Assembly: GCF_900112025.1 (NCBI RefSeq)
Contig: NZ_FOKL01000010.1
Location: forward strand, 124,001 to 188,000
Origin: Janthinobacterium sp. 344
Lineage (GTDB): Bacteria; Pseudomonadota; Gammaproteobacteria; Burkholderiales; Burkholderiaceae_D
Reading direction: 5' to 3'
DNA length: 64,000 bases
Of this stretch, positions 27,975-53,060 are shown in pieces; the stretch's first letter is position 1; the number at the start of each line of letters is the position of its first letter. The notes beneath the pieces were generated by a model, which did not search any database, had not been told where the DNA came from, and saw only the letters and a list, made by a program, of their open reading frames with translations. The position numbers and the translations under genes were made by a program.

Positions 27975-28643
27975 CTAGGCTTGCGAGGCGCGTTCAAACG
28001 CCTCGATAATCGGCTGCAAGCGCTCGCGCTTGAGCTTTAATGCCGCCTGGTTGACCACCAGGCGCGACGAAATTTCCATGATGTGCTCGACCTCGACGAG
28101 GTTGTTCGCGCGCAGGGTGCTGCCCGTGCTGACCAGGTCGACGATGGCGTCGGACAGGCCGACCAGCGGGGCCAGTTCCATCGAGCCATACAGCTTGATC
28201 AGGTCGACGTGCACGCCCTTGGCGGCGAAGTGCTCGCGCGCCGTGTGCACGAACTTGGTGGCCACGCGCAGGCGCGCGCCCTGGTGCACGGCCTTTTCGT
28301 AATCAAAGCCGGCCTGCACCGCCACCGACATGCGGCAGGAGGCGATATTCAGGTCGATCGGCTGGTACAGGCCTTCGCCGCCGTGTTCCAGCAGCACGTC
28401 CTTGCCCGCCACGCCGAAATCGGCCGCGCCGTACTGCACATAGGTCGGCACGTCGCTGGCGCGCACGATGATGACGCGCACGTTCGGATCGTTGGTGGCC
28501 AAAATCAGCTTGCGCGAGGTCTCCGGGTTTTCCAGCACCTGGATGCCGGCCGCTTCCAGCAGCGGCATGGTGTCCTCAAAAATGCGGCCCTTCGACAGCG
28601 CCAAAATCAGCTGGGAGCTGTCGCCCGTATTCGATCCGTTCAT
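27975..28643 (-). CDS. hisG: ATP phosphoribosyltransferase, short form
   Basis: A 222-residue HisG, the first and rate-setting histidine step. [36 protein letters not shown] and [15 protein letters not shown] (PRPP loop) are seen. It ends before the C-terminal regulatory domain of the 300-residue long form, so it belongs to the short form that needs the HisZ subunit for activity and feedback control. No hisZ lies in this window. Confidence 0.96.
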
Positions 28644-28675
28644 GCTCGTTCCTTACTCATTTATGATTTACAACA

Positions 28676-28787
28676 CCTGACAAAACCGTAGCGAGCGAAA
28701 GTGATTTGTGGTCGAGAAGCGCAACTGTACGAAGGTACAGTGAGCATCGCAGGCCGCAAAGCACGACGCGCAGTAGGTTTTGACAGG
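28676..28787 (+). repeat. 112-bp structured repeat element, copy A
   Basis: Lies between the murA stop and the hisG start. Nested helices: P1 28676-28687 CCTGACAAAACC with 28776-28787 GGTTTTGACAGG (one A-A mismatch); P2 28701-28713 GTGATTTGTGGTC with 28752-28764 GGCCGCAAAGCAC (one mismatch); P3 28724-28730 ACTGTAC with 28735-28741 GTACAGT, loop GAAG. The P2-P3 internal loop is identical in copy B. Wobble pairs favour a plus-strand transcript, antisense to the flanking genes. It may be a small RNA, a transcript-processing element or a dispersed repeat. Confidence 0.75.
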
Positions 28788-28789
28788 CG

Positions 28790-30281
<1,492 letters not shown>

Positions 30282-43042: not shown

Positions 43043-43750
43043 TCAATTGGGGCCGGACTCGGCCACGGTTTTGCGGGGACGGCCCCGCTTGGCAGGCAGC
43101 ACTTGCCGCTGCATTTTCTGCTCCAGCGCCTGCTTGAACGCCTCGGAACCGAGCGGCCAGCCCTTCAACACGGCCTGTTCCACGACCTTGACCTGGCTGC
43201 TGCCCAGGCCCTGCTCGAACAGGCGCAGATACGCCGCCTCGCGGTCGAACGGCGTGTTGCCCAGCGCCCAGTACAGCGCATGGTCGGTGATGACGGGATC
43301 GGGCCGCACGCCAGCATGGTGGGCATAGCTGGACCAGGCGTGGTCCAGCACCTGGCCCGCCAGCCCCGCCTGCACGGGCACGGATTCCAGATAACGGCAG
43401 CAGGTAAGGAAGAAATTGTCGGGATCGATGACGGCCGTTTTGTAGCGTCCCTGCCACAGTGCGCCTTCGCGGCCGTATTTCTGGTTGAAATACGGCACGT
43501 AATAGCGTCCCAGCCACTGCATCAGCTGTCCCAGGCCCGTCGCATCGGCTGGCGTCGCCAATAAATGTAACTGATCTGGCAATAAAACATAGGCGTGGAT
43601 GGCCACCTTGAACATTTTCGCGCCCGTTTTCAGCCAGGACAAAAATTGCGTGTAGTCAAGCGCGTCCTGGAACACAGGCTGGCGGTTGCTGCCGCGCTGG
43701 ATCACGTAATGGGGCAGTGCGGGAATGATGAGGCGGGGCAAACGGGCCAT
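43043..43750 (-). CDS. REP-associated tyrosine transposase (Y1-type), degenerate catalytic motif
   Basis: A 235-residue Y1_Tnp-family protein. MARLPRLIIPALPHYVIQRG and the LMQWLGRYYVPYFNQKYG helix with its tyrosines are typical, as is ALWQGRYK. The HUH metal-binding motif, usually NHVHLL, reads DQLHLL (residues 59-64), so the first histidine is a glutamine (Q60). Nicking activity may be lost or altered. The C-terminus is lysine/arginine-rich (PAKRGRPRK, an AT-hook-like motif). Confidence 0.88.
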   Translation of the reverse strand: MARLPRLIIPALPHYVIQRGSNRQPVFQDALDYTQFLSWLKTGAKMFKVAIHAYVLLPDQLHLLATPADATGLGQLMQWLGRYYVPYFNQKYGREGALWQGRYKTAVIDPDNFFLTCCRYLESVPVQAGLAGQVLDHAWSSYAHHAGVRPDPVITDHALYWALGNTPFDREAAYLRLFEQGLGSSQVKVVEQAVLKGWPLGSEAFKQALEQKMQRQVLPAKRGRPRKTVAESGPN

Positions 43751-50446: not shown

Positions 50447-52186
50447 TTAAAAACGCGCGTTCAATTCGATCTGCAGGGTGTCGATCGACAGCGCCGAACC
50501 GAACACTTCGCGGCTCGACGTCCAGCGGCCGCTGAACCAGGTGTTCTTGTCGATCGCATACGCGCCACCCAGGTAATACCCGCGCGCATTCGTGCCGCCC
50601 AGGTGGAAGGTGGAATCGTTGTAGGCGTCAGGCAAGGCATCCGGTTCGATGCGCTTATAGCCCAGCAACACGTTCCAGTCGCCGCGCGCCTGCGTGTTCG
50701 CCTTGCCCAGGGTCGCCTGCAGCATGTAGGCATTGCCGCCGCTCCTGAAATCGGCTTGCGACACGCCGCCCGTGCCGCCGAAGTTGTTCATGATGCCGCC
50801 CTTGGCGCGCGCCCACATTTCATTCTTGTCGTAGGCCATGTTGCGCACATAGTCGCCTTCGATGCGCAAATCCGTGCCGCCCGCCACCTTGCTGTCCCAG
50901 CGCGCGTTCAGGTTGGCCAGGCGGAACTTGGAGGCCAGGCCCACGTATTGCGGCTGCGGCGTATTCGCCGGATCGAGCGGATTGAGCGCGATATTGCGCA
51001 GCAACATCAAGCTGTTGCCTTTTTGCATGCTCGATGGACGCGACCAGTCCGTGCTGCAGCCATCGGCGCCCGCGTACAGCGCGCACGGCTGCGAGTATTC
51101 GCCGCTGATATTGCGGAAGTTGTAGTAGGCCAGCGCGCCGCGCAATTGATGGTCGCTGTTGACCTTCCACGAGGCGCCCACTTGCGCGCCCAGCAGCCAC
51201 TTGTTTTCGCTGGACATTTTTGCCTGGCTGCGGCTCGGCGCATTGTCGGACGAATACTCGAGCGGAATCAGGCCCAGGGTGCCGAACACGGTGACGTCCT
51301 TGCTGGCGCCCACCGGCTGCTGCACCTTGGCGGCGATGCCGTCGAAATTGAGTTCGCTGGAAAACAGTTCATCGCCGGAAATAAACGGGTTGTCGAAGCG
51401 GCCCGCCGTCAGTTTCAGCCAGGAAGCGGGCTGGTACGACAGCCAGGCCTGGTCCAGCCAGATGTTTTTCTTGCCCAGGCCGCCGCCGAGGGTCTGCGTG
51501 GTCGACACCGGGCTGTCATCGTTGCCGCTGGCCAGGCGGATGCCCGCTTGCGTGTTCTCGGAAATATCGGCCAGGATGCCCAGGCGGGCACGCGCGCGCA
51601 GCAAGTGCTTGCGGTCCTGGCGCGTGTTCAGCAGCGATGGCAGTGCCAGGTTGGTGTTCGCATTGACGTCGTAGCCGCTGCCGCTGTTGAGCGAGCGCCA
51701 GTCGATCTCGATATTGCTGTTGGCCATGTCGTAATAGCGCGATTCATAGCGGGCGCGCACATCGCCTTCCACGCGGATGCGCTTGGTCCATGCCGGCACT
51801 TCATTCGGCGCCGCCCAGCCACCCGCCTGCGCTTCGGCCATGACCTGTCCCTTGATCTCGTCACGGATCTGCTCGCGCACGGTTTGCGAAATGTACGGCA
51901 CGCGCACGTCGCCCGGCTGCACTTGCGCCAGGGCGACAGGGGCGGCCGCCGGACGGGCTTGCGCGGCGGCCAGCGCCTCGCTCTGCGCCTGCGCCAGCAG
52001 CGCTTCGCCGGCATCCTTGTTCAGGGCGCCGCTCTGGATCAGGCCACGGATCAGCTTGACCATGGTGCTGTCGGCCGGTGCGGCAACCTGCGCTTGCACC
52101 GCGCCCGCCGCCATGCTCAGGGCGAAAGCGGCCAGCGCCAGCGGAAGGCGGCGCACACGCTGTGAGGGAGAAAATAAGGAATTCAT
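50447..52186 (-). CDS. Large outer-membrane porin (putative porin family)
   Basis: A 579-residue beta-barrel protein. A signal peptide (about 1-32, LALAAFALSMAAGAVQAQ) precedes a helical N-terminal segment, then strands with aromatic ends such as RVEGDVRARYESRYYDMANS, and the C-terminal strand LQIELNARF ends in phenylalanine, as BAM substrates do. It fits the 'putative porin' family seen beside TonB/ExbBD clusters. No TonB box or plug domain is visible, so it is not a TonB-dependent receptor by sequence. Confidence 0.8.
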   Translation of the reverse strand: MNSLFSPSQRVRRLPLALAAFALSMAAGAVQAQVAAPADSTMVKLIRGLIQSGALNKDAGEALLAQAQSEALAAAQARPAAAPVALAQVQPGDVRVPYISQTVREQIRDEIKGQVMAEAQAGGWAAPNEVPAWTKRIRVEGDVRARYESRYYDMANSNIEIDWRSLNSGSGYDVNANTNLALPSLLNTRQDRKHLLRARARLGILADISENTQAGIRLASGNDDSPVSTTQTLGGGLGKKNIWLDQAWLSYQPASWLKLTAGRFDNPFISGDELFSSELNFDGIAAKVQQPVGASKDVTVFGTLGLIPLEYSSDNAPSRSQAKMSSENKWLLGAQVGASWKVNSDHQLRGALAYYNFRNISGEYSQPCALYAGADGCSTDWSRPSSMQKGNSLMLLRNIALNPLDPANTPQPQYVGLASKFRLANLNARWDSKVAGGTDLRIEGDYVRNMAYDKNEMWARAKGGIMNNFGGTGGVSQADFRSGGNAYMLQATLGKANTQARGDWNVLLGYKRIEPDALPDAYNDSTFHLGGTNARGYYLGGAYAIDKNTWFSGRWTSSREVFGSALSIDTLQIELNARF

Positions 52187-52228
52187 TGTTTCTTTCGGTA
52201 AAAATTAAAATGAATGTCGTAAAGAACG

Positions 52229-52340
52229 CCTGACCAAACCGTCGCGAGCGGCAGTGAGTTGTGGCTGAGAAGCGCAGCTGTGCGCATGCACAGTGAGCAT
52301 CGCAGGCCGCAAATCACAACGCGCAGCAGGTTTGGTCGGG
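52229..52340 (+). repeat. 112-bp structured repeat element, copy B
   Basis: Lies between the tonB stop and the porin start. The same helices as copy A: P1 CCTGACCAAACC with GGTTTGGTCGGG (all 12 pairs, one a T-G), P2 GTGAGTTGTGGCT with GGCCGCAAATCAC (one mismatch), P3 GCTGTGC with GCACAGT. An A-T pair in P1 and one in P3 of copy A are replaced by C-G and G-C here. Identical length and internal loop. Orientation is antisense to the surrounding operon. Confidence 0.75.
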
Positions 52341-52343
52341 TGT

Positions 52344-53060
52344 TCACGGCCGGCGGCCTTTGATGGAAACGCGGGCCGGAAAACGCAACGCCGCCGGCGG
52401 CCGTTCATCGGCGCGGAAGTCGCGCACCATGGCCAGCACCTGCTCATCCGTCTGCGCATTGCCCGTGCCTTGCACCAGCTGCACCTTCGTCGTCCTGCCT
52501 TCCGTATCGAGCCACAGGTCGACGCGGATATCGTTGAACGCCAGCTGGCGCGTGCGCGGGTCGCGGGCAAAGGCCAGCTGCAGCGCGTTGGCGACATAGC
52601 GGCCATACGATCCCGCGCCGAGTCCGCCGCCACCGCCGCTACCGCTCATGCCGCCGCCGCGTCCGGCCTGGATGCCGAAGGCATCGCTGCCGGCCTGCGC
52701 CGCGCCGTCGATGGTGACGGGGTCGCCCTTGTCCGGCGACGGGCTTTCCGGCGCGTCATCCATGGGCTTGTCGGCCGGCGTCGGTTCCGGCTCCGACACT
52801 TCCGGCACCACCTTGTCGGGCGTCGGTTCCGGCAGTTTTTCCGGTTCCGGCGGCGGCGGCGGTGGCGGCGGCAGCATCAGCATCGGCGTGGCCGCCACTT
52901 CGCGCTTGGTGGCCGCCGTGTCGGACAGCAGATACCAGACCAGCGCGGCCAGCGCAGCGGCCAGCAGCGCGCCGCCGGCCACGCCGCCCCAGCCGCGCCA
53001 CCACTGCGCGGCGCCCGACGGTTCCGAGGCCGCCATCTTCATCATGTCGTCACGCTTCAC
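52344..53060 (-). CDS. tonB: TonB energy transducer
   Basis: A 238-residue protein with one N-terminal membrane helix (VAGGALLAAALAALVWYLL), a proline-rich periplasmic spacer (eight prolines then repeated EP/EPTP) and a C-terminal TonB-like domain (VANALQLAFARDPRTR, VDLWLDTEGRTTKVQLVQG). A glycine-rich stretch joins the two. The GTG at 53060 is supported by GAGGAG six bases upstream. It follows exbD by 10 bp. Confidence 0.9.
   Translation of the reverse strand: MKRDDMMKMAASEPSGAAQWWRGWGGVAGGALLAAALAALVWYLLSDTAATKREVAATPMLMLPPPPPPPPEPEKLPEPTPDKVVPEVSEPEPTPADKPMDDAPESPSPDKGDPVTIDGAAQAGSDAFGIQAGRGGGMSGSGGGGGLGAGSYGRYVANALQLAFARDPRTRQLAFNDIRVDLWLDTEGRTTKVQLVQGTGNAQTDEQVLAMVRDFRADERPPAALRFPARVSIKGRRP

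Follow-up and report, generated by a model that had tools for sequence, protein, structure and literature searches.

A large mobile family of foldable repeats behind stop codons in Janthinobacterium and other Betaproteobacteria

Two intergenic stretches on contig NZ_FOKL01000010.1 of Janthinobacterium sp. 344 are copies of one another, and the question that they raise is what kind of element they represent. They were analyzed within a stretch of 64,000 nucleotides of that contig, hereafter the window. A first-pass annotation had located an element of 112 bases at 28676-28787 (copy A) and 52229-52340 (copy B); these coordinates are correct, and the copies align without gaps over the 112 bases. 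The unit is slightly longer, as a covariance model (R1) built from 30 copies of the same genome spans 28670-28793 and 52223-52346. Both copies lie, as had been pointed out, between minus-strand genes, their plus strand being antisense to the neighboring genes. The folding energy of the plus strand is of -50.6 and -62.4 kcal/mol for the two copies (z about -6), and none of 200 shuffled sequences was as stable. The corresponding features are listed below; naming the gene at 28790..30040 murA is our reading of its Pfam EPSP_synthase match.

27975..28643, minus strand: hisG, downstream of copy A (Pfam HisG)
28670..28793, plus strand: element copy A, between the MurA-type gene and hisG (R1 match of 135.8 bits; fold)
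28687..28697, plus strand: conserved block of the 5′ arm of copy A, CGTAGCGAGCG (alignments)
28714..28723, plus strand: conserved block of copy A, GAGAAGCGCA, including the 5′ side of GA/GCA internal loops two and three (alignments)
28724..28741, plus strand: terminal stem-loop of copy A, ACTGTAC-GAAG-GTACAGT (fold and covariation)
28742..28751, plus strand: conserved block of copy A, GAGCATCGCA, the 3′ side of loops two and three (alignments)
28767..28776, plus strand: conserved block of the 3′ arm of copy A, CGCGCAGTAG (alignments)
28790..28792, minus strand: TAA terminating the MurA-type gene; it overlaps the end of copy A and lies 16 nt beyond CGCGCAG
28790..30040, minus strand: murA-type gene, preceding copy A in the mRNA (Pfam EPSP_synthase)
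50447..52186, minus strand: porin gene, downstream of copy B (Pfam Porin_5)
52223..52346, plus strand: element copy B (R1 match of 133.7 bits; fold)
52344..52346, minus strand: TGA terminating the 238-aa gene; it overlaps the end of copy B and lies 17 nt beyond CGCGCAG
52344..53060, minus strand: gene for a 238-aa protein, upstream of copy B (no Pfam match; TonB-like by eye only)

The earlier proposal of a plus-strand structure holds, and its three helices around a single loop have to be replaced by eight short helices with several conserved internal loops. In copy A, the loop GA of CGTAGCGAGCG (28687..28697) lies opposite the GCA of 28767-28776, and the three loops can be read as one motif, 5′-YGAG/5′-CGCAR, present twice in one direction and once flipped. 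Kink-turn and bulged-G motifs, judged by eye only, were set aside. Between copies A and B, the exchanges of A-T for C-G in P1 and of A-T for G-C in P3 are present as reported, and pairing is kept as more copies are added. In an alignment of 71 matches (70 of them distinct; four from the same genome, the rest from elsewhere, mostly other genera), 96.3% of the paired cells are standard, and the value for the copies of the own genome is 95.0%. Changes affecting both sides occur at 33 of the 37 pairs across the 70 distinct copies, none of 500 shuffles reaches the pairing and covariation values of this alignment, and sliding the partners by 1–3 columns makes pairing drop to 28–42%. The outer and middle helices vary freely; the internal loops are near-invariant.

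That the plus strand is the better-folding and more wobble-tolerant one, as had been argued from two copies, was borne out in four sets of sequences. Leaving out fixed wobble columns, the ratio of G-U to A-C cells is 131:50 for the own-genome copies, 20:3 for the remaining genomes of the genus, 57:10 for other genera and 12:1 for the orthologues located between pstB and phoU. Nominal p-values overstate the effect, as the cells counted for wobbles and covariation are interdependent, but all four sets agree. For this count the one antisense row of alignment A3 was dropped and the antisense rows of A4 were left out; alignments A3–A6 were fitted to the R1 structure, and A3 includes two truncated duplicates. 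The plus strand also gives the more stable fold in 88/96 own copies, 33/33 in the rest of the genus, 27/29 in other genera and 15/15 pstB-phoU orthologues. The fold is kept by matched mutations on the strand complementary to the mRNA of the gene at which the element is anchored (see below).

The family of which copies A and B are members is large and mobile, and its foldable repeats measure about 112–124 bases (some about 137). At least 40 copies were found in the own genome by BLASTN; R1 gave 129 matches, at least 105 of them distinct copies of at least 52 bits, the remainder being mostly the same copies read on the opposite strand. As 150 of 7024 first-look candidates were scored, this count is a lower bound. 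The dispersed family with RNA-like covariation suspected in the first-pass annotation is supported, and the two copies of the window are far from being its only members. If this is right, at least 105 intergenic hairpins of this genome, none of them annotated, can be assigned to a single family. The covariance-model search that had been suggested yielded many further copies in related genomes: in the genus, 35 of 37 genomes were matched (39 of 61 when the rest of that sample is included). Within the GTDB family, 139 of 245 genomes and 32 of 44 genera have matches, of which no more than 14 were scored for any genome, and a second model, built from diverse copies, matches 20 of 369 genomes of the class, the own genome included. 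Scanning named genomes with an exact pattern resulted in at least 120 stretches, mainly from Betaproteobacteria; among the stretches listed are those of Ralstonia, Massilia, Herbaspirillum, Zoogloea, Thauera, Cupriavidus and Rubrivivax, and, as outliers, Solimonas and a metagenome bin labelled Eremiobacterota. Loci from L352 on were chosen by this exact pattern, which fixes the terminal stem and the nearby loops. For two queries, no plasmid copies were found. None of the 96 own copies examined is called inside a gene, and the element, short, multi-copy, intergenic, palindromic and devoid of an ORF of its own, resembles ERIC, REP and MITE-like repeats in all these traits. Among openly licensed papers, our search recognized none describing the family.

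The first-pass account lacked two features of the family, namely that its copies are mobile and that they are anchored at stop codons. With respect to the latter, context was called for 96 of the 105 own copies, and the genes to the left and right of the plus strand are oriented -/- in 48, +/- in 34, +/+ in 9 and -/+ in 4, one being unresolved. The right neighbor is head-on to the element in 82/95 copies; the other 13 adjoin plus-strand genes and are not anchored. Head-on genes end between -16 and +6 nt from the 3′ end of the element in 79/95 scorable copies, against 2.0% of 20,000 random intergenic insertions simulated on the contig of the window, the interval having been chosen after the distances were seen. 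From the conserved CGCGCAG to the stop codon there are 16–24 nt in 64 of the 82 copies, and all three stop codons occur among these 82 (TAA 40, TGA 30, TAG 12). The same arrangement is found elsewhere: among 62 other loci, 42 of the 56 scorable ones are anchored at -16 to +6. Among the 120 stretches from named genomes, of which 15 lie at an edge, 92 of 104 scorable ones have a head-on right neighbor, and in 80 of the 104 (all with such a neighbor) the stop codon is 9–27 nt past the conserved block; single genomes contribute several loci to this set, part of which coincides with the pstB-phoU set from Herbaspirillum. Genes were called throughout, other genera included, with a codon-usage caller trained on the 64-kb window. 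Across the Betaproteobacteria, copies lie mostly right behind stop codons, in one fixed direction.

Comparison of orthologous sites revealed filled and empty ones. The spacer between the murA-type gene and hisG measures 15–28 nt and lacks the element in all 23 relatives of the genus examined, and the site of copy B is empty in the three relatives compared. When about 840 kb of four genomes, including 16 elements, were compared, several sites were empty in relatives and one was filled in all four. One pair of empty and filled sites shows a clean junction. As regards target duplication, one pair has an apparent 8 bp and others none or 1–3 nt; few pairs are readable, and they have no common length. 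Evidence of turnover comes from Herbaspirillum, in which 15 of 17 genomes carry an element between pstB and phoU, the sole match of the genome in six of them. The element falls there into classes that cut across the relationships of the genes. Genomes G139 and G172 have 96.2% of the phoU DNA in common and 69.7% of the element; for G139 and G184 the values are 90.8% and 99.2%, respectively. The alleles of the element being out of step with the genes, they are either replaced independently of their flanks or strongly constrained, or both.

Deleted and exchanged forms were also encountered at such sites. At two of them (the G009 orthologue of G018:C1:72589, and the G000, G003 and G018 orthologues of the G009 copy in L317), internally deleted elements end in short GCG repeats and retain the outer stem and the 3′ block. 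At the sites orthologous to G003:C1:24528 and G018:C1:202291, other genomes carry palindromic repeats of the GGGTCAGACCC and GTCGGATTACG types, as if these sites attracted repeats.

Outside the family, relatives are mostly forms of about 145 nt that contain the end blocks of the element. Anchoring is weaker in them (5/15 scorable), and the plus strand is the more stable one in 11 of 17, 17 of 19 loci having been used (L472 and L479 were left out). The Rfam model of the Xanthomonas sRNA sX9 (RF02228) matches six of 12 such loci, two above the gathering threshold of 44 bits (L476, 51.6 bits; L473, 49.9 bits) and four below it (L169, L475, L474, L472); at E ≤ 1, it has no match in L477, L478, L479, L480, L170 and L175. 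All six matches lie on the strand opposite to that of the element model. The relatives share with sX9 a match of 76 nt; sX9 differs from the element in comprising one arm only, in its strand and in the fold drawn for it, and neither the own-genome elements nor the other genera of the family tested matched it. Judging from these sequences, sX9 looks like one arm, read on the opposite strand, of a hairpin repeat of about 145 nt, and its Rfam structure may have been drawn from half of an element. Passages of published reports place sX9 among the most prevalent annotated sRNAs (PMC9029176), record it in two Herbaspirillum strains by means of Infernal (PMC6337395) and describe its RNA as raised under copper stress in Xanthomonas campestris (PMC10924375). 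If our reading is right, a frequently annotated Rfam sRNA that seems to be half of a repeat needs a second look.

The dispersal, the private insertions facing empty sites, the strand-specific upkeep of the fold, the fixed orientation and register, and the turnover of alleles at one site have been documented above. We incline, by a little, to explain them by a non-autonomous mobile palindrome of the ERIC/REP/MITE kind, with an unusual targeting of stop codons and with a machinery that recognizes the folded strand. ERIC/RU and other small bacterial MITE-like repeats (abstracts of PMC2229807, PMC2759123 and PMC3049150) are likewise short, intergenic, imperfect palindromes that lack genes of their own, with many copies and with empty sites in relatives. 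The element departs from them in folding strand-specifically, with one internal loop that occurs three times, in its fixed orientation and register at stop codons and in its spread across the Betaproteobacteria.

One strand of such a palindrome would fold on its own into a long hairpin in which the same GA/GCA internal loop occurs three times; through these loops a putative trans-acting machinery would recognize the strand, either as ssDNA or as RNA. Insertion would take place immediately behind stop codons, because termination of translation may leave a strand or an end exposed there. The complement of the element would then be transcribed as the start of the 3′ untranslated region of the gene or as an operon spacer, and the long hairpin located there may shield or regulate the mRNA. 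Some results speak against this explanation: target duplication is not consistent, 13 of the 95 own copies are unanchored, the relatives of about 145 nt show weaker anchoring and a less marked preference for the plus strand, and the strong conservation in place at pstB-phoU would fit a resident functional element as well. Among the candidate enzymes considered (RAYT, reverse transcriptase and integron integrase), none was found to mobilize the element. The folded strand is the template of the lagging strand in 13 of 32 copies (the best-scoring rows of six genomes, with the origin inferred from hisG and the start of dnaA seen in two); there being no replication-strand bias, targeting of lagging-strand ssDNA is not favored. 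In its most specific form, the proposal would be that a widespread element of Beta- and Gammaproteobacteria spreads by way of its folded single strand, that the 3′ end of this strand is linked, immediately behind the stop codon of a gene (whichever stop codon is used), to the sense strand of that gene, that this step is coupled to the end of translation and that sX9 is one arm of such elements; this we put forward as a speculation, unlikely as a whole. If our main explanation is right, bacterial mobile DNA would gain a rule of targeting to stop codons that lends itself to a direct test.

An alternative that we deem unlikely, albeit worth serious attention, is that of a resident, cis-acting RNA element of 3′ untranslated regions and operon spacers, placed by selection, that makes the mRNA of the upstream gene more stable or conceals naked RNA from Rho. 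It would account for the anchoring at stop codons, for the conserved place in 15/17 Herbaspirillum genomes, for the gene-sense terminators located past the element in 10 of the 48 own copies in -/- context and for the transcription of relatives of the family as sX9, as described in passages of PMC10924375. Private insertions and empty sites, however, are common. The main tension is that selection on the mRNA strand would be expected if the element had a function in the mRNA, and the data favor the other strand, the better-folding, wobble-tolerant one being the complement of the mRNA. This paradox is a well-defined question for mobility assays and for strand-specific assays of RNA.

If the plus strand itself were the functional molecule, it would be a real antisense or trans-acting small RNA, in agreement with its fold, its G-U preference and the near-invariant loop sequences. 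We regard this as improbable: the sigma-70-like signal upstream is at the level of shuffled sequences (7.16 vs. 7.12 for own copies, 7.44 vs. 7.33 for others), which also led us to discard a promoter of this type carried by the element, a plus-strand terminator separates the left gene from the element in 8 of 34 convergent own pairs, and the Rfam relative sX9 lies on the other strand. Nor did the suggested kinship with the toxic small RNA of Betaproteobacteria (RF02278) survive. According to passages of PMC7011215 and PMC4603805, its published members are short transcripts of low GC content, and most have a terminator. The element is likewise multi-copy and betaproteobacterial, but the RF02278 model matches neither the window nor 10 loci at gathering, neither the region of copy A at E ≤ 10 nor 20 loci at E ≤ 1. 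For Rfam as a whole, nothing in the window matches at gathering, and one chance match only appears beside copy A at E ≤ 10.

Mobilization as a REPIN by a RAYT (IS200-like) transposase appears very improbable. Copy number, the palindromic hairpin, the intergenic place and the lack of a clear target duplication are reminiscent of REP/REPIN elements, REPs lie close behind stop codons in E. coli, and RAYT-type genes were present in 32 of the 38 genomes searched, one of them in the window. Nevertheless, two RAYTs of the own genome and others of the genus are flanked by repeats of the GGGTCAGACCC/GACTCTGACCC types and not by the element, no copy of which was found beside a RAYT; on this ground, mobilization by the RAYTs read was rejected. 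The third own RAYT (C11:82799) was judged by distance only, its nearest element match being about 300 kb away. Furthermore, genomes G014, G017 and G020 have a single Y1_Tnp match each, yet element matches numbering at least 58 in G014, 20 in G017 and 38 in G020, and the element shows no replichore bias. A resident reverse transcriptase was discarded as well, PF00078 being absent from the own genome; it is absent from 10 of 37 genus genomes in all, the own included, several of them with high copy numbers.

Integron attC-type sites, which also lie behind the stop codon of a gene and fold on its complementary (bottom) strand, have this geometry in common with the element and are hardly credible here, since no integron integrase exceeded the cut-off in any of 37 genus genomes (the own included), the elements are dispersed instead of forming cassette arrays, and their conserved letters are in the internal loops; the variable ends, to judge by eye from the end profiles, seem unlike attC core sites (RYYYAAC/GTTRRRY at the ends).

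Some minor observations concern the arrangement and the neighborhood of the copies. Some longer copies of about 137–150 nt contain complementary arms, GGCTCGGCGCCCCC and/or GGGGGCGCCGAGCC-like, in the stem or near the loop; those of L283, L282, L228 and L242 and of other own copies possibly represent a second module. Three element matches in a row, two of them weak, occupy G000:C13:70906-71374, and the period of a tandem array at G227:C1:3741641-3742385 is about 104 nt. The window itself contains, at 43043-43750 on the minus strand, a gene for a RAYT/IS200-like transposase (Pfam Y1_Tnp) with GACTCTGACCC-type repeats around it, and a RAYT matching this gene lies about 15 kb from hisG in many genomes of the genus.
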